NCBI RefSeq assembly: GCF_020880995.1
Contig: NZ_JAJISD010000001.1
Location: forward strand, 1,116,001-1,180,000
Source of the DNA: Reyranella aquatilis
GTDB taxonomy: Bacteria; Pseudomonadota; Alphaproteobacteria; Reyranellales; Reyranellaceae
Reading direction: 5' to 3'
DNA length: 64,000 bases
The first letter of the stretch is position 1; each line of letters opens with the position of its first letter. Positions 4,518-16,549 of the stretch are shown here, piece by piece. The notes under the pieces were generated by a model, which saw only the letters and a program-made list of their open reading frames with translations, was not told the origin of the DNA and did not search any database. Made by a program: the position numbers and the translations under genes.

Positions 4518-4561
4518 GCACGGTCCTTGCTAGTTCCCCTCCCGATCAGGGGGAATTGCAC

Positions 4562-5614
4562 ATGAACAAGTCGAAGACCGCCATCCTCAACCGCCGCACC
4601 GTCCTCGCCGCGGCGGGTGCCGCCACCGCCGCGCTCGCGGCGCCGCGCATCCTGCGCGCCCAGGGCAAGGAACTCGTCGTCGGTGGCGCCGCCAGCCACA
4701 AGAATTTCGTCGAGACCATCATCGCGCCGGTCGTGGAGAAGAAGTTCTCCTGCAAGGTCGTGTTCGAAGGCTCCCGCTCGCTGGTCAATCTCGAGAAGAT
4801 GCAGAAGAACAAGGACAAGCAGTACCTGTCGGTCGTCATGATGGACGATCCGGTCATGATCCCGGCGGTCGCCGAGGGGCTGCTCGATCCGCTCACTGTC
4901 GCCAAGGTGCCGAACCTCGCCGCGCTGAAGCCGGGTACGGTCCACATGGACGGGATGTGGTGCAACTATCTCCAGCCCTGGCTGGGTATCGCCTACAACC
5001 CGAAGGCCATGAAGACGGCCCCGACCTCGTGGGCCGACGCCTACGATCCCAAGTACAAGGGCCGGGTCATCCTGCCCTCGCTGCAGAACACCGAGGGCCT
5101 CGCCAACCTGTTCATGGCGGCCTTCCTCGCCACCGGGAAGCCGATGGCCGATGCCCAGAAGGACGTCGATGCCGGCTTCAAGAAGCTGGTCACCATCAAG
5201 CCCAACCTGCTCACCGCCTACACCCAGATGCCGCAGGCCTACAATCTTCTGGAACAGGGCGAAGGCTTCATGATCTCGAGCGCGATCTCCCAGGTGGCGC
5301 TGGAGCGCAAGGCCGCGGGCGCGCCGGTCGACATCGCCGTGCCGAAGGAAGGCATCTTCGCCATGCCGTCGGGCGTCGCACTCGTGAAGGGCGGGCCGCA
5401 GCCGGAACTGGCCGCGGGTTACATCAACGAAATGATCGGGCCGGAAATCCAGGCCAAGCTGTCGGCCGCAACCTACTCGCTGCCGACCAACAAGGACACG
5501 CCGGTGCCGGCCGGCGCGCCGACAAACGCGACGATCTTCGGTATCAACTGGAAGTTCGTCGCCGACAATCGCGCCGACTGGGTGAAGCGCTGGGACCGGG
5601 ACATGGCGATGTAG
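4562..5614 (+). CDS. ABC transporter substrate-binding protein, polyamine (PotD)-like
   Basis: Periplasmic receptor (350 aa) of the ABC importer encoded by the next three genes. The N-terminus has a twin-arginine motif, NRRTVLAAAG, followed by an alanine-rich segment ending at RAQG, suggesting Tat export. The rest fits the extracellular solute-binding family that includes spermidine/putrescine and Fe3+ receptors. The ATG at 4562 was chosen over an in-frame TTG six bases earlier because AGGGGGA sits 7 nt upstream of it. First gene of a six-gene operon. The ligand cannot be read from sequence; neighbours suggest a nitrogenous compound rather than polyamine. Confidence 0.88.
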   Translation: MNKSKTAILNRRTVLAAAGAATAALAAPRILRAQGKELVVGGAASHKNFVETIIAPVVEKKFSCKVVFEGSRSLVNLEKMQKNKDKQYLSVVMMDDPVMIPAVAEGLLDPLTVAKVPNLAALKPGTVHMDGMWCNYLQPWLGIAYNPKAMKTAPTSWADAYDPKYKGRVILPSLQNTEGLANLFMAAFLATGKPMADAQKDVDAGFKKLVTIKPNLLTAYTQMPQAYNLLEQGEGFMISSAISQVALERKAAGAPVDIAVPKEGIFAMPSGVALVKGGPQPELAAGYINEMIGPEIQAKLSAATYSLPTNKDTPVPAGAPTNATIFGINWKFVADNRADWVKRWDRDMAM

Positions 5615-5629: not shown

Positions 5630-6694
5630 GTGACCTCTGATTCCTTCCTCGACGTCGCCGGCGCCGAAAAGGCGTTCGGCGGCGTTACCGTCCTCGGCGG
5701 TGTCGACCTTCGGGTTGCGGCCGGCGAGTTCATCTCGCTGCTGGGCCCCTCAGGGTGCGGCAAGACCACCTTGTTACGAATCATCGCCGGTCTTCTGGCC
5801 GCCGATCGTGGCTCCATCCGGCTCGACGGCGAGGAGATCGGCGCCCGGCCGCCGCACCGCCGCGATGTCGGCGTCGTCTTCCAGAACTACGCCCTGTTCC
5901 CGCATCTGACGGTCGCGGAGAACATCGCCTTCGGCCTCAAGGCGCGGAAGCATCCCGCCGGAGAGATCGGCCCGACAGTGCGGCGCTTCCTGTCGCTGGT
6001 CCATCTGACCGATTTCGCCGACCGTTCCGTTCGCGCCCTCTCGGGCGGCCAGCAGCAGCGCGTCGCGGTGGCCCGCGCGCTGGCGGTGAAGCCGAAGCTG
6101 CTGCTGCTCGACGAGCCCTTCTCCGCGCTCGATCGCAAGCTGCGCGAAAACATGCAGATCGAGCTGCGCCGCCTGCTGCGCGAGTTGGGCATCACCGCCG
6201 TGTTCGTCACGCACGATCAGGACGAGGCGCTCACCATGTCCGATCGCATCGCGGTGATGAACAGGGGCGCGATCGAGCAGCTGGCCGAACCGGCGACGAT
6301 CTACCGGTCGCCCGCCACCGCCTTCGTGCTCGAATTCGTCGGTCTCTCCTCGCGGATTTCAGGCACGGTCGTCGGCCAGGACTACGAACATGTCGTCGTC
6401 GATACCGCCTATGGTCAGCTGCGCGCGCCGGGCAGCTTCGTGCCAGGCGCATCGGTGGTGCTGGCAGTGCGCCCCGAGCGGATCAAGGTCAATGCACCGG
6501 GAGACTATGCGCTGGTGGCGCGGCTGCGCGACGCCGTCTTCCAGGGCTCCAAGGTGCAGCTGCATTTCGAGGCCCGGGACGGCGACCATCTCATGGTCGA
6601 AACGGCCGACCTTTCCGATGGCCTGCCCGCACCCGGCACAGAGATGCGCCTGGGCTGGGCCGTCGCCGACACGCTGATCTACCCGGCGTCATGA
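5630..6694 (+). CDS. ABC transporter ATP-binding protein, PotA-like
   Basis: Cytosolic ATPase (354 aa) that powers the importer. Walker A GPSGCGKTT at 39-47, Q-loop region VVFQNYALFPH, signature LSGGQQQRV from 137, Walker B LLLLDEP at 157-163, and the switch histidine in FVTHDQDEA. A C-terminal TOBE-type regulatory domain follows (about 240-354), as in PotA and FbpC. The start is a GTG at 5630, 15 bp after the receptor gene, with no clear Shine-Dalgarno, so translational coupling is likely. Its stop overlaps the next start as ATGA. Confidence 0.93.
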   Translation: MTSDSFLDVAGAEKAFGGVTVLGGVDLRVAAGEFISLLGPSGCGKTTLLRIIAGLLAADRGSIRLDGEEIGARPPHRRDVGVVFQNYALFPHLTVAENIAFGLKARKHPAGEIGPTVRRFLSLVHLTDFADRSVRALSGGQQQRVAVARALAVKPKLLLLDEPFSALDRKLRENMQIELRRLLRELGITAVFVTHDQDEALTMSDRIAVMNRGAIEQLAEPATIYRSPATAFVLEFVGLSSRISGTVVGQDYEHVVVDTAYGQLRAPGSFVPGASVVLAVRPERIKVNAPGDYALVARLRDAVFQGSKVQLHFEARDGDHLMVETADLSDGLPAPGTEMRLGWAVADTLIYPAS

Positions 6695-7542
6695 CCCCGA
6701 AGAGCGCGCCCTCGCCCTGGCGTGATCCCGTCGCGCTCCTCGCGGCGCCGGCGGTCCTTTACCTGCTGGTCATCTACGCCTTCCCGCTGCTCTGGCTGTT
6801 CATGAAGAGCCTGACCGGCCCGACCGGCTTCACGCTCCAGCCCTACGTCTCGTTCCTCGGCGACCCCTTCAACTGGCGCGTCGTCGGCAACACGCTGCGG
6901 GTCGCCGCCTGGGTCACCGTCGTCTGCTTCCTGATCGGCTATCCCGCCGCCTTCGCGCTGGCCCGCGCCGGCGCGGTCCTGCAGATCGTGATGCTGGTCG
7001 CGATCATCCTGCCGCTGTCGGTCGGCGCCGTGGTCAAGGCCTTCGCCTGGCAGATCGTGCTGCGCCGCGACGGGATCGTCTCGCAGATCCTGGTCGGCCT
7101 CGGCTTCTGGGACGAGCCGCAGCGACTTCTGTTCACCGAGACCGGCCTGGTGCTGGGCGCGGCCAACATCTTCCTGCCGTTCATGATCCTGCCGATCTAT
7201 TCGGTGGTGAAGCTGATCGATCCCCGTCTCAGCGAGGCCGGCGCGACCCTGGGCGCGACGCCGCTCTACCGCTTCGCCCATGTCACTCTGCCGCTGACCC
7301 TCCCAGGCATCGTCTCGGGCGTCGCCTTCGTCTTTTCGATGAGCGTGTCGATGTTCGTCATCCCCTCGCTGCTGATCGGCGACCGCTTCCAGACCCTGTC
7401 GACGCTCACCGGTCGCTCCTTCCTGCTGATGCGCAACGAACAGCTCGGCTCGACCACGGCAGTGATCCTGCTGGTCCTGGCCGTCGCCATCGTCGTCGGA
7501 TCGACCTGGCTGGCGCGGCGGATCGGAGGCAGCACCACATGA
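6691..7542 (+). CDS. ABC transporter permease, PotB-like
   Basis: Inner-membrane permease of 283 residues with about six hydrophobic helices. The EAA loop that docks the ATPase is visible as SEAGATLGATPLYRF followed by THVTLPLTLPGI-like sequence (LPLTLPGIVSG). The ATG at 6691 overlaps the ATPase stop (ATGA), and its own end overlaps the next gene the same way at 7539-7542. These overlaps indicate tight translational coupling of all the transporter subunits. Confidence 0.92.
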   Translation: MTPKSAPSPWRDPVALLAAPAVLYLLVIYAFPLLWLFMKSLTGPTGFTLQPYVSFLGDPFNWRVVGNTLRVAAWVTVVCFLIGYPAAFALARAGAVLQIVMLVAIILPLSVGAVVKAFAWQIVLRRDGIVSQILVGLGFWDEPQRLLFTETGLVLGAANIFLPFMILPIYSVVKLIDPRLSEAGATLGATPLYRFAHVTLPLTLPGIVSGVAFVFSMSVSMFVIPSLLIGDRFQTLSTLTGRSFLLMRNEQLGSTTAVILLVLAVAIVVGSTWLARRIGGSTT

Positions 7543-8339
7543 CCGCCCTCGAGCGCACTTCGCAGTACGTCGTCTGGTTCATCGCAACCTTCACCGTCGT
7601 CTTCCTGATGACGCCGCTGGTCGTGACCATCGCCGTCTCCTTCGGCTCCTCGACGGTCTTCACCTTGCCGCCACCCGACTGGTCGCTGCGATGGTACGAA
7701 CGTCTCGCCGGCATGCGCGGCCTGCTGCCCGCGCTCCTAGTCTCCCTGCAAGTGGCTGCCGCCTCGACGGCGGTCGCCCTTGTATTGGGCACACTTTGCG
7801 CCATTGCCCTCGTGCGCGGCCGCTTCCCCGGCCGCGAGACGATCTCGACCTTCCTCGTATCGCCGCTGATGCTGCCGGGTCTCGTCATCGGCATCGCCAT
7901 GCTGCAGGGCTTCAAGGCGATGGGCCTGCGCGACGTCTATGCCAGCCTGCTGATCGCGCACGTGGTGATCACGCTGCCCTACATCGTCCGCACCGTGGTC
8001 GGCGCACTCTCGCTCTTCGACTTCTCGCTGATCGACGCGGCACGGACGCTGGGCTGTTCCTACCCCGCCGCGCTCACGCGCGTGCTGGTGCCGGCCCTCG
8101 CCCCGGCGTTCCTCACGTCGGGCATGTTCGCGTTCCTGGCGTCGATGGACAATTACCCGATCTCCATGTTCTTCACCGATGCCTGGACCAAGACACTGCC
8201 CATCCAGATGCTGCAATATGTCGAGGAACGGCCCGACCCGACCATCGCGGCGATTTCCGCCGGGCTGGTGCTGCTCGCCATCGTGGCGCTCGTGATCGGA
8301 GACCGTCTCGTGGGCTTGCGCAAGCTCGCTGATTTCTAG
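7539..8339 (+). CDS. ABC transporter permease, PotC-like
   Basis: Second inner-membrane permease (266 aa) forming the channel with the preceding gene. Hydrophobic helices are spread along the length and the EAA-type loop reads DAARTLGCSYPAALTRV then LPALAPAF-like sequence. The start overlaps the previous stop (ATGA at 7539). The racemase-like gene follows after 10 bp, so transporter and putative enzymes are one transcription unit. Confidence 0.92.
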   Translation: MTALERTSQYVVWFIATFTVVFLMTPLVVTIAVSFGSSTVFTLPPPDWSLRWYERLAGMRGLLPALLVSLQVAAASTAVALVLGTLCAIALVRGRFPGRETISTFLVSPLMLPGLVIGIAMLQGFKAMGLRDVYASLLIAHVVITLPYIVRTVVGALSLFDFSLIDAARTLGCSYPAALTRVLVPALAPAFLTSGMFAFLASMDNYPISMFFTDAWTKTLPIQMLQYVEERPDPTIAAISAGLVLLAIVALVIGDRLVGLRKLADF

Positions 8340-8349
8340 GAACGGCCGA

Positions 8350-9099
8350 ATGAAAATCCTCGTCGCCAATCCCAACACGTCTACCGGCGTGACCGACCGG
8401 CTCGTGACCGCGGGCAAGCTCGTCGCCAGCCCCGGCACCGAACTGCTGCCGATGACCGCGCCGCGCGGCGTGCCCTACATCGCCACCCGCGCCGAGGCCG
8501 CCATCGGAAGCGCCATGATGCTCGAGATGCTGGCCGAACGCCGCGGCACCTTCGACGCCGCCATCGTTGCCGCCTTCGGCGACCCCGGCCTCGGCGGCGC
8601 GCGCGAGTTGTTCGACTTCCCCGTGGTCGGCATGGCGGAGGCCGCGATGCTGGTGGCCTGCACGCTCGGTCGCAAGTTCGCGATCGTGAGCTTCGCCAAG
8701 GCGCTCGAACCGTGGTTCGCCGAAATCGTCGACTGGCATGGCATGTCCGGCCGCTGCGCCGCGATCCGCACGCCGGACGAAGGCTTCCGCTCGATCGACG
8801 ACGTACAGCACGAGAAGGAGCAGGTGCTGATCGACATTGCCCTCGGCACGGTGAAGAACGACGGCGCCGACGTCGTGATTCTGGCCGGCGCGCCGCTGGC
8901 CGGGCTCGCCAACACGATCCGCGACCGCGTGCCGGTGCCGCTGGTCGACGGCATCCAGGCCGCGGTGACGATGGCCGAGGGGCTGGTGCGCCTCAATCCG
9001 CGCAAGGCGACGCAAGGCACCTATCGCCGCCCCGCGGCCAAGGACTCCAAGGGCCTTGCGGGCCCCCTGGCCGATATCATCGGCCATCGCGAGTCGTGA
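8350..9099 (+). CDS. Asp/Glu/hydantoin racemase-fold protein lacking both catalytic cysteines
   Basis: A 249-residue protein with the fold of hydantoin, allantoin and Asp/Glu racemases: N-terminal ILVANPNTS, then a FGDPGL segment at 76-81. Known members use two cysteines as acid and base, in contexts like CFGDPG and LGCAGMA. Here the first is Ala75 (VAAFGDPG) and the second aligned position is Gly180 (ILAGAPLAG), both read directly from the codons. The remaining cysteines (104, 136) are elsewhere. Racemisation by the usual two-base mechanism is therefore unlikely. It could be a lyase, isomerase, decarboxylase or binding protein. It sits between an ABC importer and a PuuE-like gene, so a role in hydantoin/ureide or related nitrogen catabolism is inferred. 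Confidence 0.8.
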   Translation: MKILVANPNTSTGVTDRLVTAGKLVASPGTELLPMTAPRGVPYIATRAEAAIGSAMMLEMLAERRGTFDAAIVAAFGDPGLGGARELFDFPVVGMAEAAMLVACTLGRKFAIVSFAKALEPWFAEIVDWHGMSGRCAAIRTPDEGFRSIDDVQHEKEQVLIDIALGTVKNDGADVVILAGAPLAGLANTIRDRVPVPLVDGIQAAVTMAEGLVRLNPRKATQGTYRRPAAKDSKGLAGPLADIIGHRES

Positions 9100-9104
9100 C
9101 CGCG

Positions 9105-9995
9105 ATGCGCGACCTCAAGGGCTACGGCCGCACGCCACCCGATCCGCAATGGCCCGGCGGCGCCCGGGTCGCCGTCTCCTTCGTGATCAACTTCGAGGAA
9201 GGCGCGGAGATGTCGTTGTCGGCGGGCGACGCCCACAACGAGAAGGTCTACGAGGTCACCGACGAGGTCGTGGGCGTGCCCGACCGGTGCATGGAATCGC
9301 ATTTCGAGTACGGCACCAAGGCAGCCTGGTGGCGCATCGCCGATTCGCTGGAGCGGCTGGGCGTGCCGGCAACGGTGAGCACCTGCGGCCTGGCTGCCGA
9401 ACTGTCGCCCTGGCTGATCCAGGACGCCGTGGCGCGCGGCCATGAAATCTCCTGTCACGGCTGGCGCTGGGAGAAGCATGCCCACATGGAGGAGGCGAAG
9501 GAGCGCGAGATCATCGCCCGCACAGTCAAGGCGCTGACGGACATCGCCGGCACGCGGCCCGTCGGCTGGCACACCCGCTCGACGCCCTCGCCCAACACGC
9601 GCCGGCTGCTGGTCGAGGAAGGCGGCTTCCTCTACGACAGCGACGACTACTCCGACGACCTGCCGTTCCATGTCGAGCTCGCGGGCAAGCGCCACCTGGT
9701 ATTGCCCTACAGCTTCGACACCAACGACATGCACTATCACCAGGGCTTCCACCGCTTCGTGTCGGCCCGCGACTTCGCCGACTACACGAGCGATGCCTTC
9801 GACACACTGTGGGCCGAGGGCGAGAAGTCACCGAAGATGATGTCGATCGGCCTGCACCTGCGCATGATCGGCCGCCCCGGCCGCATCGCCGCCCTCGACC
9901 GCATCGTGTCGCACATGAGGCAGAAGGGCGGCGCCTGGTTTGCCACCCGCCGCCAGATCGCCGAGCACTGGAACGCGCGGTTCAAAGACTCATAG
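9105..9995 (+). CDS. Polysaccharide deacetylase-family protein, PuuE (allantoinase)-like
   Basis: A 296-residue NodB-fold hydrolase. The N-terminal RDLKGYGRTPPDPQWPGGAR pattern and the VINFEEGAE strand closely match the PuuE-type, metal-independent allantoinases that open the allantoin ring. ISCHGWRWE and GWHTRSTPSPNTR are further family landmarks. Start: ATG at 9105; an in-frame GTG at 9096 overlapping the upstream stop is an alternative. Last gene of the transporter operon. Together with the racemase-fold protein it resembles a ureide or cyclic-amide utilisation cassette, but the true substrate is not evident. Confidence 0.82.
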   Translation: MRDLKGYGRTPPDPQWPGGARVAVSFVINFEEGAEMSLSAGDAHNEKVYEVTDEVVGVPDRCMESHFEYGTKAAWWRIADSLERLGVPATVSTCGLAAELSPWLIQDAVARGHEISCHGWRWEKHAHMEEAKEREIIARTVKALTDIAGTRPVGWHTRSTPSPNTRRLLVEEGGFLYDSDDYSDDLPFHVELAGKRHLVLPYSFDTNDMHYHQGFHRFVSARDFADYTSDAFDTLWAEGEKSPKMMSIGLHLRMIGRPGRIAALDRIVSHMRQKGGAWFATRRQIAEHWNARFKDS

Positions 9996-10095: not shown

Positions 10096-10569
10096 TTAGG
10101 CCTTCACCTTCGGCCGCACGATCTTGATCGTCGAGGTGGAGTGGACGATCAGGCGGCCCTTCTCGTCCTTGAGTTCGCCATCGAGGAAGCCGACCGTCCC
10201 GCCCCAGCGCATCACGCGACCCTCGGCATAGACGATGCCCGGTCCCATCGCCTCGAAGAAGCTGATCTTGAGTTCGAGCGTCGGCACGGCGACGCCGAGC
10301 TTGCCCTTGACGATGGCGGCGTTGGCCATGGCCGTATCGACCATGCCCGTGAGGAAGCCGCCCTGGCAGACGCGTCCCTGCGAGTGGCAGAAGGCCGGCA
10401 CGACCTCGAAGCGGAAGCGCGCATAGCCGCGCGTCGAGTCGATGTCGAGCAGCTCGCCGTTCAGCGTCTTCAACGCCTCGGGCGGGTTTGCGCGCAGGAT
10501 CTCCAGGATCTCCGAATCGTGGACGAAATCCTTGGGGACGTGATGGAAGTCGGGATGGGCTGAACTCAT
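10096..10569 (-). CDS. PaaI-type hotdog-fold thioesterase
   Basis: A 157-residue protein of the hotdog-fold acyl-CoA thioesterase family. The central motif is QGRVCQGGFLTGMVDTAMANAA-like, where the catalytic region usually reads HGGxxxxxxDxAxG; here the histidine is replaced by Cys-Gln (VCQGG). The C-terminal strand carries EGRVMRWGGTVGFLDGEL. The ATG at 10569 was chosen because upstream in-frame sequence lacks protein-like character. Probably hydrolyses an acyl-CoA; substrate not evident. Monocistronic, converging on the PuuE-like gene. Confidence 0.82.
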   Translation of the reverse strand: MSSAHPDFHHVPKDFVHDSEILEILRANPPEALKTLNGELLDIDSTRGYARFRFEVVPAFCHSQGRVCQGGFLTGMVDTAMANAAIVKGKLGVAVPTLELKISFFEAMGPGIVYAEGRVMRWGGTVGFLDGELKDEKGRLIVHSTSTIKIVRPKVKA

Positions 10570-10724
10570 GGCCGGCGGACTATACCGAACGCACCGGCGC
10601 CCGCACCTTCCGCCTTGGACCGATCCGGGCTCATGTTTCGGCCGTCGAAAGTACCAGCGGCGACTGCGGCCTACGTGCGGTACAACGCCTGCCCCACTAC
10701 GGCCCAAACGAATTGCCGAAGGAA

Positions 10725-11762
10725 ATGAGCTTCAAGGTCCACATCGCCTCCGCCGGCCGCACGATCGATGTGCCGCCGCGCACAACCATCCTGGACGCCG
10801 CGCTCGACGCCGGCATCGCCTTTCCGTTCGGCTGCCAGTCCGGCAACTGCGGCGCCTGCAAATCGCGCCTCGTGAAGGGCGAGGTGACGATGCGGGGCTA
10901 TTCGGACTTCGCGCTTTCGGATGACGAGAAGGCGAGCGGCCTGATTCTCGCCTGTCGCGCCGTGCCCGGGGCTGACAGCGAAGTCGCCTGGCTGGAGGAG
11001 GACGACCTGATCGTCCATCCGCGCCGCATCCTCGCCGGCAAGGTCGTCGCCCTCGACGATGCCACGCACGACATCAAGCGCATCCGGCTCGCGATCGCCT
11101 CGGGCGGTCCCTTCGATTTCTCGGCCGGCCAGTTTGCCTCGGTGACGTTCGAGGGTTGTCCGCCGCGCGACTATTCGATGGCCAACGTGCCGGGCGACCC
11201 GGTCCTCGAGTTCCACGTCCGCCGGACCGCGGGCGGCGCGACCAGCGCGCATGTCTGGGAGAGGTTGAAGGTCGGCGATGGCGTGCGCGTGGAGGGCCCG
11301 TTCGGCGCGTCCTACCTGCGCGAGAGCCATCGCGGCCCGATCATCGCCGTGGCGGGCGGCTCCGGTATGGCGCCGATCAAGTCGATCGTCGAGCGTGCCC
11401 TGCAGAAGGAGTTGCCGCAGCACATCTACTTCTATTTCGGTGTCCGCAGCGAACGAGACCTCTACCTGCACGACTATTTCGCCGCGCTCGCGGCGAAGCA
11501 CAAGACGCTGCACTTCATGCCCGTCCTCAGCGAAGGCGGTGATTCGCCCCTGCGACAGGGTCTGGTACACGAGGCCGTCGCGCAGGATTTCGACGAGGTC
11601 GATGGCTGCAAGGCCTATCTCGCCGGCCCGCCGGTCATGGTCGAGGCCGCGACGCTGATGCTGGAGCAGCGCGGCATGCGCCGCGCCGACATACACGCGG
11701 ATGCCTTCTATACGGCAGCCGAAATGGCGACTGCCGGGAAGAAGACCGGAGCGGACCTGTGA
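10725..11762 (+). CDS. NAD(P)H:ferredoxin-type reductase with N-terminal 2Fe-2S domain
   Basis: An electron-transfer flavoprotein of 345 residues. Residues 1-90 are a plant-type ferredoxin with cluster ligands Cys37, Cys42, Cys45 and Cys77. Residues 100-200 are a flavin domain with RDYSMAN (148-154). A pyridine-nucleotide domain follows with GGSGMAP (211-217) and a YLAGPP-type C-terminal motif. The layout is that of phenol-hydroxylase or CDP-6-deoxyglucoseen reductases, which pass electrons from NAD(P)H to an oxygenase or similar partner. No partner oxygenase is in this operon. AAGGA lies very close to the ATG. The next gene overlaps its stop (GTGA). Confidence 0.9.
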   Translation: MSFKVHIASAGRTIDVPPRTTILDAALDAGIAFPFGCQSGNCGACKSRLVKGEVTMRGYSDFALSDDEKASGLILACRAVPGADSEVAWLEEDDLIVHPRRILAGKVVALDDATHDIKRIRLAIASGGPFDFSAGQFASVTFEGCPPRDYSMANVPGDPVLEFHVRRTAGGATSAHVWERLKVGDGVRVEGPFGASYLRESHRGPIIAVAGGSGMAPIKSIVERALQKELPQHIYFYFGVRSERDLYLHDYFAALAAKHKTLHFMPVLSEGGDSPLRQGLVHEAVAQDFDEVDGCKAYLAGPPVMVEAATLMLEQRGMRRADIHADAFYTAAEMATAGKKTGADL

Positions 11763-12577
11763 GCGATCTGCTGCCGGGAAGAGTGGCCATCGTCACCGGC
11801 GCGGGCCGGGGCATCGGTCGCGCCATCGCGGAGTCGCTGGTGGCGGAAGGCGCTCGGGTCGTCGTGGCCGACAATGGCACCTCGATCTCGGGCGCCGGCA
11901 GCGATCCCGAGGTGGCGCGCGCGGCCGCCCGGGAACTGAACGACAAGGCGGGCGGTACGAGCGCTCTCGCCTTCACCGAGAGCGTCGCCTCGCCCGGCGT
12001 GGCCCGCCAGCTGGTCGACCTCGCGGTCAGGACGTTCGGCGGCATCGACATCGTCGTGAACAACGCCGCGATCCGGCGCGATGCCCCTGTATTCGACGCC
12101 GATCCGGCCGATTGGGACGCGGTGATCCGCACCAATCTTTCTGCCGCCTTCCATCTGACCAGCACCGCTTCGGGCGTGATGCGCAACCGGGGCAAGGCAG
12201 GCCGCATCGTCAACATCGTCTCGTCGGTGGGCCTTTCCGGCGCTCCCGGCCACGCTGCCTATGCCAGCGCCAAGGCAGGCCTGCTCGCGCTGACGCGCGT
12301 TACGGCGATGGACCTCGCCGACGAGGAGATCACGGCCAACGCGGTGTTGCCGCTCGCGGGCAGCCAGCCTGCCGACGTCGCCAGCCTGGTGACGGCGCTC
12401 TGCCTGCCGGCGGGCGGGCCCATTACCGGCCGGTTGCTGGGCGTGCGCGGTCGCGAGGTCTTCCTGTTCGGGGAGCCGCAGCCGGTCGCAAGCTTCGACG
12501 CAGGCGAACCCGGCAGGCTCGTGGGCGACATCGCCGGAAGACTCGGCGGTCAGGTTGCCTCCCCGTTCGTCTTTTGA
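11759..12577 (+). CDS. Short-chain dehydrogenase/reductase
   Basis: A 272-residue Rossmann-fold oxidoreductase. The NAD(P)-binding motif is TGAGRGIG, the structural motif NNAA is present, and the catalytic set is IVSSVG followed by YASAK. The insert DNGTSISGAGSDP after strand 2 is typical of SDRs related to multifunctional beta-oxidation enzymes. The C-terminal about 70 residues diverge from a minimal SDR. It starts with GTG at 11759, overlapping the reductase stop, so it is translationally coupled. Substrate unknown. Confidence 0.88.
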   Translation: MSDLLPGRVAIVTGAGRGIGRAIAESLVAEGARVVVADNGTSISGAGSDPEVARAAARELNDKAGGTSALAFTESVASPGVARQLVDLAVRTFGGIDIVVNNAAIRRDAPVFDADPADWDAVIRTNLSAAFHLTSTASGVMRNRGKAGRIVNIVSSVGLSGAPGHAAYASAKAGLLALTRVTAMDLADEEITANAVLPLAGSQPADVASLVTALCLPAGGPITGRLLGVRGREVFLFGEPQPVASFDAGEPGRLVGDIAGRLGGQVASPFVF

Positions 12578-12591
12578 AGGAGAGGCCCCCG

Positions 12592-13437
12592 ATGAGTTCC
12601 TACGCCGCGCCACCCCGCACCGTCGGTCGACTGAAGCGCCCGTTCGGAAATCTCTACTACGAGATCTCGGGCAGCGGGCCGGCCCTGCTCTTCGCTCATG
12701 GCCTGGGCGGCAATCACCTGAGCTGGTGGCAGCAGGTGGCGCACTTCGCGCCCCACTACACCTGCGTCGCCTTCGCTCATCGGGGCTTTGCGCCGTCCGA
12801 TCCGGTGCCATCGGGCGTCGATCCCGCGGACTATGCCGGCGACCTCACGGCCCTGATCGATCATCTCGGATTTGCCGACGTCCGCCTCGTCGCGCAGTCG
12901 ATGGGCGGCTGGACCATGCTGGAATACGCGCTCGCGCATCAGGATCGCGTGAAGGCGCTGGTGATGAGTTCGACCTCCGGCACCATCGACCGGCGCGGTG
13001 CCGATCCGTCGGGCGGCAGTGCCTACGATGCCTGGCTGGCGAAAGCCGAGGCGGCGATCGGAGACGGCGTGGCGCGCGGCATCCACCCCGCGATGGGCGA
13101 GCGCGCGGCCAGGCGCTTTCCCGACCTGCATCTTCTCTATCGCAGCATCGACGAGATGGCGGGGGCGCTCGACAAGGAGAAGCTGCGCGCCGGCCTGCGC
13201 CGCACCGCGACGCGCACCCTGGCCGAGTTCAAGACGTTCCGCGTGCCGACGCTTCTGATCGCGGGCGGCGAAGACGTCGTCTTCCCGCCCTTCCTGGCAA
13301 GCGCCATCGCGGCAAGCCTGCCCTGCGGCGAAGCCGAGACCCTTCCCGATGCCGGCCACTCGCCCTATTTCGAGCAGGCCGCTAGATTCAATACGCTGGT
13401 CGACGCGTTCCTCGCGCGACAGCGCCAGGAGGTTTAA
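12592..13437 (+). CDS. Alpha/beta-fold hydrolase
   Basis: A 281-residue hydrolase. The oxyanion-hole segment is FAHGLGGNHLSWW, the nucleophile elbow AQSMGG places the catalytic serine at 103, and the terminal histidine is in DAGHSPYFEQ. It could act on an ester, lactone or C-C bond; nothing in the sequence fixes the substrate. AAGGAGA 8 nt before the ATG supports the start at 12592. Third gene of the five-gene operon; its last codons carry the Shine-Dalgarno of the next gene. Confidence 0.88.
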   Translation: MSSYAAPPRTVGRLKRPFGNLYYEISGSGPALLFAHGLGGNHLSWWQQVAHFAPHYTCVAFAHRGFAPSDPVPSGVDPADYAGDLTALIDHLGFADVRLVAQSMGGWTMLEYALAHQDRVKALVMSSTSGTIDRRGADPSGGSAYDAWLAKAEAAIGDGVARGIHPAMGERAARRFPDLHLLYRSIDEMAGALDKEKLRAGLRRTATRTLAEFKTFRVPTLLIAGGEDVVFPPFLASAIAASLPCGEAETLPDAGHSPYFEQAARFNTLVDAFLARQRQEV

Positions 13438-14973
13438 TTGTCCCAGGACAATCCGCGTATCGCCGTTCTCGGCTTCGCCATCGAGTGCAACCGGTTCTCG
13501 CCGGTGACGACGGCGGAGGATTTCGAACACGATGTCGACATCCGCGGCAATCGCATCGTGAGCGAGGCCCGCTCGGGCAAATCGATCACCATGCCGGATC
13601 TGCCGGGCTTCTTCGACGAGATGGATCGCACCGGCAACTGGACGCCGGTTCCCCTGCGGGTCTCGCTGGCCCAGCCCGGCGGCCCGGTCGAGGAGCAGTT
13701 CTTCAAGGCCTATCTCGCCGAGATCGAGGCCGGCCTGAAGTCGGTGCTGCCGGTCGATGCGATCTTCGTCTCCTGCCACGGCGCGGCGCTCGCCCAGGGC
13801 ACCGACGATCCCGATGGCGACCTGTTCGAGATCCTGCGCCGCGTCGCGGGCCCCGACGTGCCCATCGTGTCGGTGTTCGACCTGCACGCCAACGTCTCGC
13901 GCCGCATGATCGACAATCTCAGCGTCTTCGTGGGCTATCTCGAGAACCCGCACGTCGACATCTACGAGCGCGGCGTCGAGGCGGCCACGCACATGCGCGA
14001 GCTGCTGGCGGGCACGCGCACGGCGATCGAGATGGTGAAGCTGCCGCTGGTCCCGCCGCAGATTTCGCTGCTGACGGCAAAGGGCCCCTACGCGGACCTC
14101 ATCCGCTACGGCCAGACCAAGGTGGGTGGCGACATCCTCAACGTCTCCGTGATGGCGGGCTTCGCCTACAGCGACAGCCCCAAGAACGGTCTGACCGCCG
14201 TCGTCACGGCGCGCAACGGCAACCGCAAGGCCGCCGCCAACCTCGCCCTCGACATCGCCCAACGGGCCTGGGGCATGCGGGAACGCTTCAAGCGCGAGAT
14301 GATGACCCTGGCCGACGCCGTGCAACTCGCCGGTTCGGTCGGCCGCGACAAGCGGCGCAAGCCCATCATCCTGGCCGACGTCGCCGACAATCCCGGTGGT
14401 GGCGGTCGCGGCAACACGACCTACCTGCTGCGCGCCCTCAAGGGCGCCAAGGTCCAGGGCGTCATCTTCGGTGTCTTCAACGACGCCGCGCTTGCCGCGA
14501 AGGCGCACGCGCTGGGCGAAGGCGCGATCTTCAACGCCTCCTTCAACACGCAGGAGCACCAGGAGTTCTCCCTGCCGTTCGACTGCGAGGCCAAGGTCGT
14601 GAAACTGTCGGACGGTCAGTATGTCGGCCGGCGCGGGGTCCTCCGCAACGTTTCTGCCGACATGGGTCCCTCGGCCCTGCTCGATCTCGGCGGCATTCTC
14701 GTCGTGGTCATCAGTATCCGCTGCCAGTGCATGGACCCGCGCCAGTTCGAGATGTTCGGCCTGGACATCGCACAGGCGCGAACCGTCGTCGTGAAGAGCC
14801 GCGGCCATTTCCGCGGCGGCTTCGACGAGTTCTTCAAGCCGGAACAGATCTACGAAGTGGATTGCCCGGGCCTGACCTCGCCGGTGCTGGCGAACTTCAC
14901 CTGGACCAAGTTGCCGAGACCCGTCTACCCGCTCGACGAAGAAACGACCTGGAACCCACCCGCCATCGGCTAA
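13438..14973 (+). CDS. M81-family (MlrC / microcystinase C-like) protein
   Basis: A 511-residue predicted metallopeptidase of the MlrC family. The founder cleaves linear microcystin peptides; most relatives have unknown substrates. Metal-site regions seen are VSCHGAA (His114) and FDLHANVS (Asp148, His150). The C-terminal domain is the DUF1485/MlrC C-terminal type. The start is a TTG directly after the preceding stop (TAATTG), supported by a full AGGAGGT 4 nt upstream; no nearby ATG fits. Co-transcribed with a family-5 oligopeptide-type receptor, consistent with uptake and hydrolysis of a peptide-like or amide compound. Confidence 0.88.
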   Translation: MSQDNPRIAVLGFAIECNRFSPVTTAEDFEHDVDIRGNRIVSEARSGKSITMPDLPGFFDEMDRTGNWTPVPLRVSLAQPGGPVEEQFFKAYLAEIEAGLKSVLPVDAIFVSCHGAALAQGTDDPDGDLFEILRRVAGPDVPIVSVFDLHANVSRRMIDNLSVFVGYLENPHVDIYERGVEAATHMRELLAGTRTAIEMVKLPLVPPQISLLTAKGPYADLIRYGQTKVGGDILNVSVMAGFAYSDSPKNGLTAVVTARNGNRKAAANLALDIAQRAWGMRERFKREMMTLADAVQLAGSVGRDKRRKPIILADVADNPGGGGRGNTTYLLRALKGAKVQGVIFGVFNDAALAAKAHALGEGAIFNASFNTQEHQEFSLPFDCEAKVVKLSDGQYVGRRGVLRNVSADMGPSALLDLGGILVVVISIRCQCMDPRQFEMFGLDIAQARTVVVKSRGHFRGGFDEFFKPEQIYEVDCPGLTSPVLANFTWTKLPRPVYPLDEETTWNPPAIG

Positions 14974-14983
14974 GGAGATCGCA

Positions 14984-16549
14984 ATGCTGCGTCGTGCCCT
15001 GTTTGCCGCCATCGCACTGGTCGCGGCAGCGCCTGCCTCCGCGCAACCGAGCAAGACCCTGAAGGCGGTCATGCACTCGGACCTCAAGATCATCGATCCC
15101 GTCTGGACGACCGCCTACATCGTCCGCAACCACGGCTACCTGATCTACGACACCCTGTTTGCCTTCGATGCCAAGCTCGAGCCGCGGCCGCAGATGGTCG
15201 AGAGCTGGACCGTCAGCGACGACCAGCTGACCTGGACGTTCAAGCTGCGGGAAGGCCTGAAGTGGCATGACGGCCAGCCGGTCACGACGGCGGACGTTCT
15301 GCCCTCGATCAAGCGATTCACCGACAAGGACACGCTGGGCGGGCTGCTGGGAAAGCAGACGCAGGAGATGAAGGCGATCGACGACCGGACCTTCCAGATC
15401 GTCCTGAAGCAGCCCTACGGCATGATGCTGAAGACGCTTGCGAAACCATCGTCCGTACCGCTTTTCATCATGCCCAAACGGGTCGCCGAGACGCCGGTCT
15501 CGCAGCAGATCTCCGACACGACGGGCTCGGGGCCGTTCATCTTCAAGAAGGACGAATGGAAGCCCGGCGAGAAGGTCGTCTATCTGCGCAATCCCGACTA
15601 CAGGCCGCGCGCCGAACCGCCGTCGGGTCTTGCCGGCGGCAAGGTCGCCAAGGTCGACCGGGTCGAATGGGTTTCCATCCCCGACACCCAGACCGCGATC
15701 AATGCCCTGCAGCAGGGCGAGATCGACATGATCGAGCAGCCCTCGCACGACCTGCTGCCGGTCATCGAGAAGGACAAGAACGTCGAGATCATCATCCCCG
15801 ACCAGCTCGGATCGACCTACATCCTGCGCTTCAACTGGAAGCAACCGCCGTTCAACGACGTGCGCTACCGGCGCGCCGCGATGATCGCGTTCAACCAGAA
15901 GGACTTCCTGCAGGCCGTCATCGGTGATCCGCGCTACTACAAGATCTGCAAGGCGATGTTCAGCTGCGGCGGGCCGCTGGAGAATTCGGCCGGCACGGAC
16001 GGCATCCTGGAATCGCGTTTCGAGGAATCGAGGAAGATCCTGAAGGAGGCCGGCTACGACGGCACGCCGATCGTGCTGCTGCAATCGACCGACCTGGCCG
16101 TGCTCACCAACCTCGCGCCGGTCGCCAAGACGCTGCTGGAGCGCGGCGGCTTCAAGGTCGACATGCAGTCGATGGACTGGCAGACGCTGGTCGCCCGGCG
16201 CGCCAAGAAGGATCCGGTCGCGCAGGGCGGATGGAACATCGCCATGACCGCGGCCGCCGCGGTGCTGCTGATCGACCCGGTCAACAACCACTATGCCGAG
16301 GCAAGCGGCGATCGCGCCCAGTTCGGCTGGCCGCTCGACGAGGAAATCGAGCGGCTGCGCGTGGCCTTCGTCGGCGAAGGCGACCCGAAGAAGCAGTTGC
16401 AGATCGCGGAGCAGGTCCAGAAGCGCATCCTCGAGCAGGGCGTCACCGTCCCGCTCGGCCAGTTCCTTCAGCCGATGGCGCGGCGCAAGGGCGTGACGGG
16501 CAACATCGAATCGCCCATCACCGTCTTCTGGAACGTCGAGAAGAAGTAA
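14984..16549 (+). CDS. ABC transporter substrate-binding protein, family 5 (DppA/OppA-like)
   Basis: A 521-residue exported receptor. An N-terminal signal peptide (MLRRALFAAIALVAAAPASA, cut near AQP) is followed by a bi-lobed solute-binding domain with LREGLKWHDGQPVTTADV, a family-5 signature. These bind peptides, opines, nickel complexes or sugars. AAGGAG precedes the ATG. No permease or ATPase genes of the Dpp/Opp type are in the window, so it must work with a transporter encoded elsewhere. Its place at the end of the MlrC operon ties its ligand to that pathway. Confidence 0.92.
   Translation: MLRRALFAAIALVAAAPASAQPSKTLKAVMHSDLKIIDPVWTTAYIVRNHGYLIYDTLFAFDAKLEPRPQMVESWTVSDDQLTWTFKLREGLKWHDGQPVTTADVLPSIKRFTDKDTLGGLLGKQTQEMKAIDDRTFQIVLKQPYGMMLKTLAKPSSVPLFIMPKRVAETPVSQQISDTTGSGPFIFKKDEWKPGEKVVYLRNPDYRPRAEPPSGLAGGKVAKVDRVEWVSIPDTQTAINALQQGEIDMIEQPSHDLLPVIEKDKNVEIIIPDQLGSTYILRFNWKQPPFNDVRYRRAAMIAFNQKDFLQAVIGDPRYYKICKAMFSCGGPLENSAGTDGILESRFEESRKILKEAGYDGTPIVLLQSTDLAVLTNLAPVAKTLLERGGFKVDMQSMDWQTLVARRAKKDPVAQGGWNIAMTAAAAVLLIDPVNNHYAEASGDRAQFGWPLDEEIERLRVAFVGEGDPKKQLQIAEQVQKRILEQGVTVPLGQFLQPMARRKGVTGNIESPITVFWNVEKK

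Follow-up and report, generated by a model that had tools for sequence, protein, structure and literature searches.

Racemase-fold proteins lacking both catalytic cysteines form a bacterial branch linked to predicted cyclic-amide breakdown genes

Background

In known members of the hydantoin/allantoin racemase family one cysteine abstracts a proton and the other cysteine returns it. A protein of this fold, encoded in the 64,000-nucleotide stretch of the Reyranella aquatilis genome analysed here (the window; the genome itself is 6.0 Mb), had been described in a sequence-only reading as having both cysteines replaced, which raises the question of whether the replacement is genuine and what such a protein could do.

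Results and discussion

Both catalytic cysteines are replaced in an intact racemase-fold protein

The gene (8350..9099, + strand) is, as had been stated, intact and encodes an uninterrupted protein of 249 aa. The Pfam model Asp_Glu_race (PF01177) matches residues 3-209 with 141.5 bits against a cut-off of 31, and this whole-domain profile match, together with a two-domain, allantoin-racemase fold, places the protein in the Asp/Glu racemase superfamily; an NCBIfam search with it returned zero models at E <= 0.001. Two allantoin racemases come closest among solved structures, that of Klebsiella (3qvj/3qvk) and that of Pseudomonas fluorescens (5lfd), each sharing about 32-33% identity with the window protein. 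In the alignment with the Klebsiella pneumoniae enzyme KpAllR (3qvj), the Cys of ACFGDPGL lies over Ala75 (codon GCC, 8572..8574, +) and the Cys of LGCGGM over Gly180 (codon GGC, 8887..8889, +), so that the cysteine pair of the two-cysteine hydantoin/allantoin racemases is missing. An AlphaFold model (mean pLDDT 95.5, input alignment of 33 sequences) superposes on 3qvk with a Z of 33.8 and 1.8 A over 242 residues at 33% identity, its residues 1-243 falling on entry residues 4-247. The aligned range with 3qvk/3qvj is consistent with the equivalences 75 to 79 and 180 to 184, a correspondence judged by range and not by residue pairs. The 3qvj alignment and the superposition of the model thus agree on the reported loss of both cysteines, and the landmarks FGDPGL and NPNTS, which had been singled out as retained, are common to KpAllR. 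C104 and C136 are the sole cysteines of the window protein and lie elsewhere, so that a register shift could restore neither catalytic site; this explanation, under which cysteines would have come to stand at the true catalytic positions, is out.

Among the allantoin contacts of KpAllR (Asn12, Thr118 and Thr119; PMC12661438), the first is kept as Asn9, and the others correspond to Ser114 and Phe115 in the window protein. Residues 43-49 (YIATRAE, 8476..8496, +), which include Tyr43, Arg47 and Glu49, are the probable counterpart of OpaE loop A, a segment next to the active site (PMC12661438), as judged from the alignment and that description.

The A/G proteins form a conserved and widely distributed branch

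Homologues were collected from GTDB genomes, from searches across whole genomes of the class and phylum, and from plasmids, and were typed by the residues at positions 75/180 as A/G, C/G, V/G and M/G, G/C or C/C. The A/G branch spans the Alpha-, Beta- and Gammaproteobacteria, Actinomycetota and Bacillota. Within the genus, a close homologue (E below 1e-100) was found in 28 of the 37 genomes searched, the window genome included, and near-identical loci are recorded under Reyranella or Rhodospirillales MAGs. The window genome carries two further relatives, a C/G protein at C26:289729 (41% identical) and a C/C protein at C1:557239. Existing annotation of such genes reads just "aspartate/glutamate racemase family protein".

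A maximum-likelihood tree, whose root is not fixed, was derived after dropping columns 75 and 180 along with six long or doubtful rows; L126 and L128, which are among these six, and three distant A/G-like rows were excluded because their placement was unsure. The A/G proteins occupy one side of a branch with 99% bootstrap and 96% SH-aLRT support, and all X/G types, that is those with Gly at the second site, occupy one side of another branch (100/98). The simplest reading of this unrooted tree would be that loss of the second cysteine preceded loss of the first, and the cysteine-free subfamily appears to have arisen inside the hydantoin/allantoin-racemase branch. Another group without both cysteines is formed by the V/G loci L129, L132, L133 and L137 and the M/G locus L125, which have Val or Met at the first site followed by Ser instead of Phe.

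Conservation was quantified over 40 A/G-branch rows, made non-redundant at 85% and extending down to 39% identity. Nine residues, namely A75, G180, P182, N7, N9, D78, P79, E97 and R135, are invariant (40/40), and Y43, E49 and R47 are found in 39/40, 38/40 and 36/40 rows respectively. The invariance of A75 and G180 puts the pair far from chance, and together with the 99/96 support of the branch it bears out the suspicion that proteins with this pair constitute a true subfamily. A37, Y43, E49 and P182 are unlike the residues of the two-cysteine enzymes, and Y43, E49 and P182 serve as markers of the branch; R47 is common to the other X/G types and Y43 to the C/G type. Within the branch, position 75 is encoded by each of the four Ala codons and position 180 by each of the four Gly codons. 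Compared pairwise with the window gene, Reyranella homologues give a dN/dS of 0.02-0.22, and a homologue of 67% identity gives 0.33. The conservation, the full sets of synonymous codons and the low dN/dS show purifying selection on the A/G protein, the two altered sites included.

The gene lies between an importer and a PuuE-like hydrolase

As had been described, the gene lies between a complete ABC importer and a PuuE-like hydrolase. The four importer genes lie upstream on the + strand and encode a PotD/PhnS-like periplasmic substrate-binding protein (4556..5614, the true start probably being the ATG at 4562), a PotA-like ATPase (5630..6694, above the cut-off of TIGR01187 potA), a PotB-like permease 1 (6697..7542, with the start probably at or near 6691) and a PotC-like permease 2 (7539..8339). 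Together they make up a Pot-type ABC importer, of which no subunit passes a polyamine equivalog model, the PotA subfamily model alone being above its cut-off. Permease 2 is separated from the racemase-like gene by 10 bp, and 5 bp past the stop of the latter begins a gene for a PuuE-like hydrolase of the polysaccharide-deacetylase fold (9105..9995, +, 296 aa, Polysacc_deac_1). A promoter scan over the operon yielded nothing useful. The PuuE-like protein scores 330.5 bits against the allantoinase PuuE model TIGR03212, below the cut-off of 424.6, while another gene of the same genome, C24:221704, passes it with 436.4, suggesting that the neighbor need not be an allantoinase. The genome holds twelve PuuE-like matches, and C24:221704 is the only one of six scanned paralogues to pass this cut-off. 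A plain allantoin pathway is unlikely, given the sub-cut-off score of the neighbor, the passing score of C24:221704 and one altered allantoin contact.

In Reyranella the racemase-like and PuuE-like genes stand side by side wherever a contig extends over the two, with the Pot-like importer upstream of the pair in most. At several Reyranella loci an amidohydrolase is inserted between the importer and the racemase-like gene; its best NCBIfam match is N-ethylammeline chlorohydrolase, far under the cut-off of that model. Further downstream in the window (10560-16549) are ferredoxin-reductase-like and SDR genes, followed by what we take to be an MlrC-type gene and a dipeptide-type binding protein, all of them less constant neighbors than the PuuE-like gene.

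A variable cyclic-amide module recurs at A/G loci

The set of importer, PuuE-like and racemase-like genes also occurs in Roseomonas, Allorhizobium, Salipiger and the genome G697, the last three of which add an amidase and HydA. Pot-like and PuuE-like neighbors are thus shared by these genomes and most Reyranella loci, but elsewhere the commonest partner is the dihydropyrimidinase-like HydA, which scored above the NCBIfam dihydropyrimidinase cut-off in both of two proteins tested. Other A/G loci contain HydA, an AMDase-like protein, amidases, HyuAB and GntR regulators, together with a transporter of one of four types (Pot ABC, Ssu-like ABC, TRAP or MFS).

Among 38 non-Reyranella A/G loci, which are partly near relatives and not all independent, and some of which supplied the query proteins, 26 encode HydA, a PuuE-like protein or HyuAB, the ring-opening hydrolases, within 7.5 kb, and 35 have at least one amide hydrolase (ring-opening, amidase or TRZ/ATZ-like amidohydrolase) or AMDase-like gene in that range; the corresponding counts at C/G or M/G loci are 1/7 and 4/7. 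HydA is encoded by 15 of 16 A/G genomes and an AMDase-like gene by 11, mostly in single copy, with a copy at most ~10 kb from the A/G gene in 9 of these 11. The linkage of A/G genes to the module genes is beyond chance. The Pot-like importer and PuuE-like gene of the window are one version of a variable, widespread cyclic-amide module. We found no description of the A/G branch or of this module in the open-licence literature.

The one-cysteine AMDase/EutA-like family is seen in 20 of the 38 A/G loci, mostly with HydA (L082:9742, L086:11150, L148:8234 and others). Like AMDase, its members show the G/C pattern, with the Gly in (W)NGTS and a single Cys in CTN, but they stay under the cut-offs for AMDase and EutA. 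Beside the A/G gene at L151:9821-10490, L174:8303 and L164:1747 lies a further racemase-fold paralogue, which is distant; those of L151 and L174 likewise lack the cysteine pair (AFGDPGL, AGGPLS; ~27% identical) and adjoin HydA and PuuE-like genes. The Klebsiella oxytoca plasmid pIron_OXY carries an A/G gene (L157:9001-9738) with HydA, an AMDase-like gene and an Ssu-type ABC importer, and a blastn search with this copy against 5,426 E. coli genomes gave no match.

Predicted function and alternatives

It is most likely that the A/G protein is a working enzyme or a ligand binder, whose chemistry would be other than two-cysteine proton transfer. The C75A, C179A and double mutants of NozR each abolish stereoisomerisation (PMC10156859), so that the A/G protein should not use the usual two-cysteine mechanism. 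With a confidence just short of even, we favor its being a functional cysteine-free subfamily member that participates in cyclic ureide or amide breakdown through single-base chemistry, with no two-cysteine racemisation. The importer would take up a cyclic ureide or related cyclic amide; the amidohydrolase, HydA-like or PuuE-like hydrolase would open or trim the ring, and the amidase would finish the process. In its racemase cleft, where Asn9 is kept and Tyr43, Arg47 and Glu49 are added, the A/G protein would bind the cyclic compound or the ureido acid formed by ring opening, and it may carry out a proton shift, an elimination or a decarboxylation. The likeliest acid/base would be the invariant Asp78, near Ala75, and Arg47 in the loop-A segment would suit a carboxylate, for example that of a ring-opened ureido acid.

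The deposited sequence of the P. fluorescens allantoin racemase (PfAllR) reads AGYGEHG: the first Cys site is occupied by Gly, and a Glu stands three positions further on. Asp78 stands at the place of this Glu in 40/40 A/G rows, and nothing comparable follows Gly180, which favors a one-base reaction; it should be noted that Asp78 is also present in two-cysteine members and is hence no special mark of new chemistry. None of the A/G neighborhoods scanned contained a two-cysteine racemase, and the protein may thus simply stand in for the racemase of a hydantoinase operon. A broader proposal, which we consider somewhat unlikely, is that the A/G branch comprises cofactor-free enzymes with a reaction new to the Asp/Glu racemase fold, and that it marks an undescribed, widespread cyclic-ureide pathway including the one-cysteine AMDase-like enzyme.

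The position and invariance of Asp78 also speak for a protein that is still a cyclic-ureide racemase or epimerase with surrogate bases, Asp78 serving one face and a loop residue, for example Glu49 or Tyr43, the other. PfAllR is said, in work by Cendron from 2016, to racemise allantoin with Glu78 taking over from the lost cysteine, and the A/G gene does hold the racemase position of hydantoinase operons. However, PfAllR retains its second cysteine, whereas the window protein has Gly180 with Leu183 three residues on, leaving the mirrored place without an acid, and the KpAllR Thr119 that hydrogen-bonds the substrate (PMC12661438) is replaced by Phe115. On balance, we regard a surrogate-base racemase as unlikely.

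The conservation of the pocket would be equally well compatible with ligand binding without catalysis, and a role as a non-catalytic binder or partner subunit (a ligand carrier, a sensor or the inactive half of a racemase-fold complex) is suggested by the loss of both catalytic side chains with no replacement at those sites capable of acid/base chemistry. A second racemase-fold protein is at hand at many loci, in the form of the AMDase-like G/C protein or the distant paralogue, and the crystallisation of the Ser/Ser form of KpAllR (3qvk/3qvl) indicates that a cysteine-free pocket is a stable fold. Against this, many loci have neither partner, a search of the window genome with an AMDase-like query came up empty, and the pocket residues are conserved across phyla beyond most scaffolding needs, making this role unlikely. 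An alignment artefact or a decaying gene has practically no probability left, for the Cys found at position 73 in some Reyranella relatives, two residues before Ala75, lies in an unconserved column (V/I/C/L) while sequence and structure alignments concur, and decay is ruled out by the intact ORFs of relatives and dN/dS values of 0.02-0.22.

The earlier suggestion of a subfamily with a different reaction or a binding role in a cyclic-amide pathway therefore stands as regards the subfamily and its linkage to cyclic-amide catabolic genes, with the different reaction and the binding role as candidate functions.

Implications

The existence of a well-defined branch without both catalytic residues makes the name aspartate/glutamate racemase probably misleading for A/G proteins, and their recurrent neighbors supply a short list of candidate substrates. 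If the protein is an enzyme, the racemase scaffold would be able to work without the cysteine pair. The C/C, C/G, V/G and A/G types document a possible stepwise route to this change. The finding is broader than one locus, in that a cysteine-free hydantoin/allantoin-racemase branch is tied to a widespread, variable cyclic-amide module.

Comparison with known systems

The closest structural counterpart is KpAllR/HpxA (3qvj; Z 33.7, 1.8 A over 242 residues, 33% identity), which shares NPNTS, FGDPGL and the substrate-contacting Asn12 (Asn9) with the window protein. It differs in its catalytic pair Cys79/Cys184 (PMC12661438) in place of Ala75/Gly180, in Thr119 in place of Phe115, in Gly in place of Pro at position 182, and at Tyr43, Arg47 and Glu49. 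PfAllR (5lfd/5lg5; Z 33.0) is likewise without the first cysteine and has Glu78 three positions on, where the window protein has Asp78, but keeps the second cysteine, at which A/G proteins have Gly180 throughout (40/40). The arylmalonate decarboxylase (AMDase) of Bordetella bronchiseptica has a related fold (Z 18.4) and also lacks the first cysteine (Gly74), but uses Cys188 as proton donor with a Thr75-Ser76 dioxyanion hole (PMC4996985). The window protein has no second cysteine and carries Phe76-Gly77; with these motifs absent (Ala75, Gly180, Phe76-Gly77), its assignment as an arylmalonate decarboxylase was rejected. Finally, the C/G paralogue of the same genome (G000:C26:289729-290451, 41% identical) shares the Gly in place of the second cysteine, but retains the first cysteine, has Gly for Pro182 and is surrounded by FAA-hydrolase, MFS-like and nitroreductase genes.
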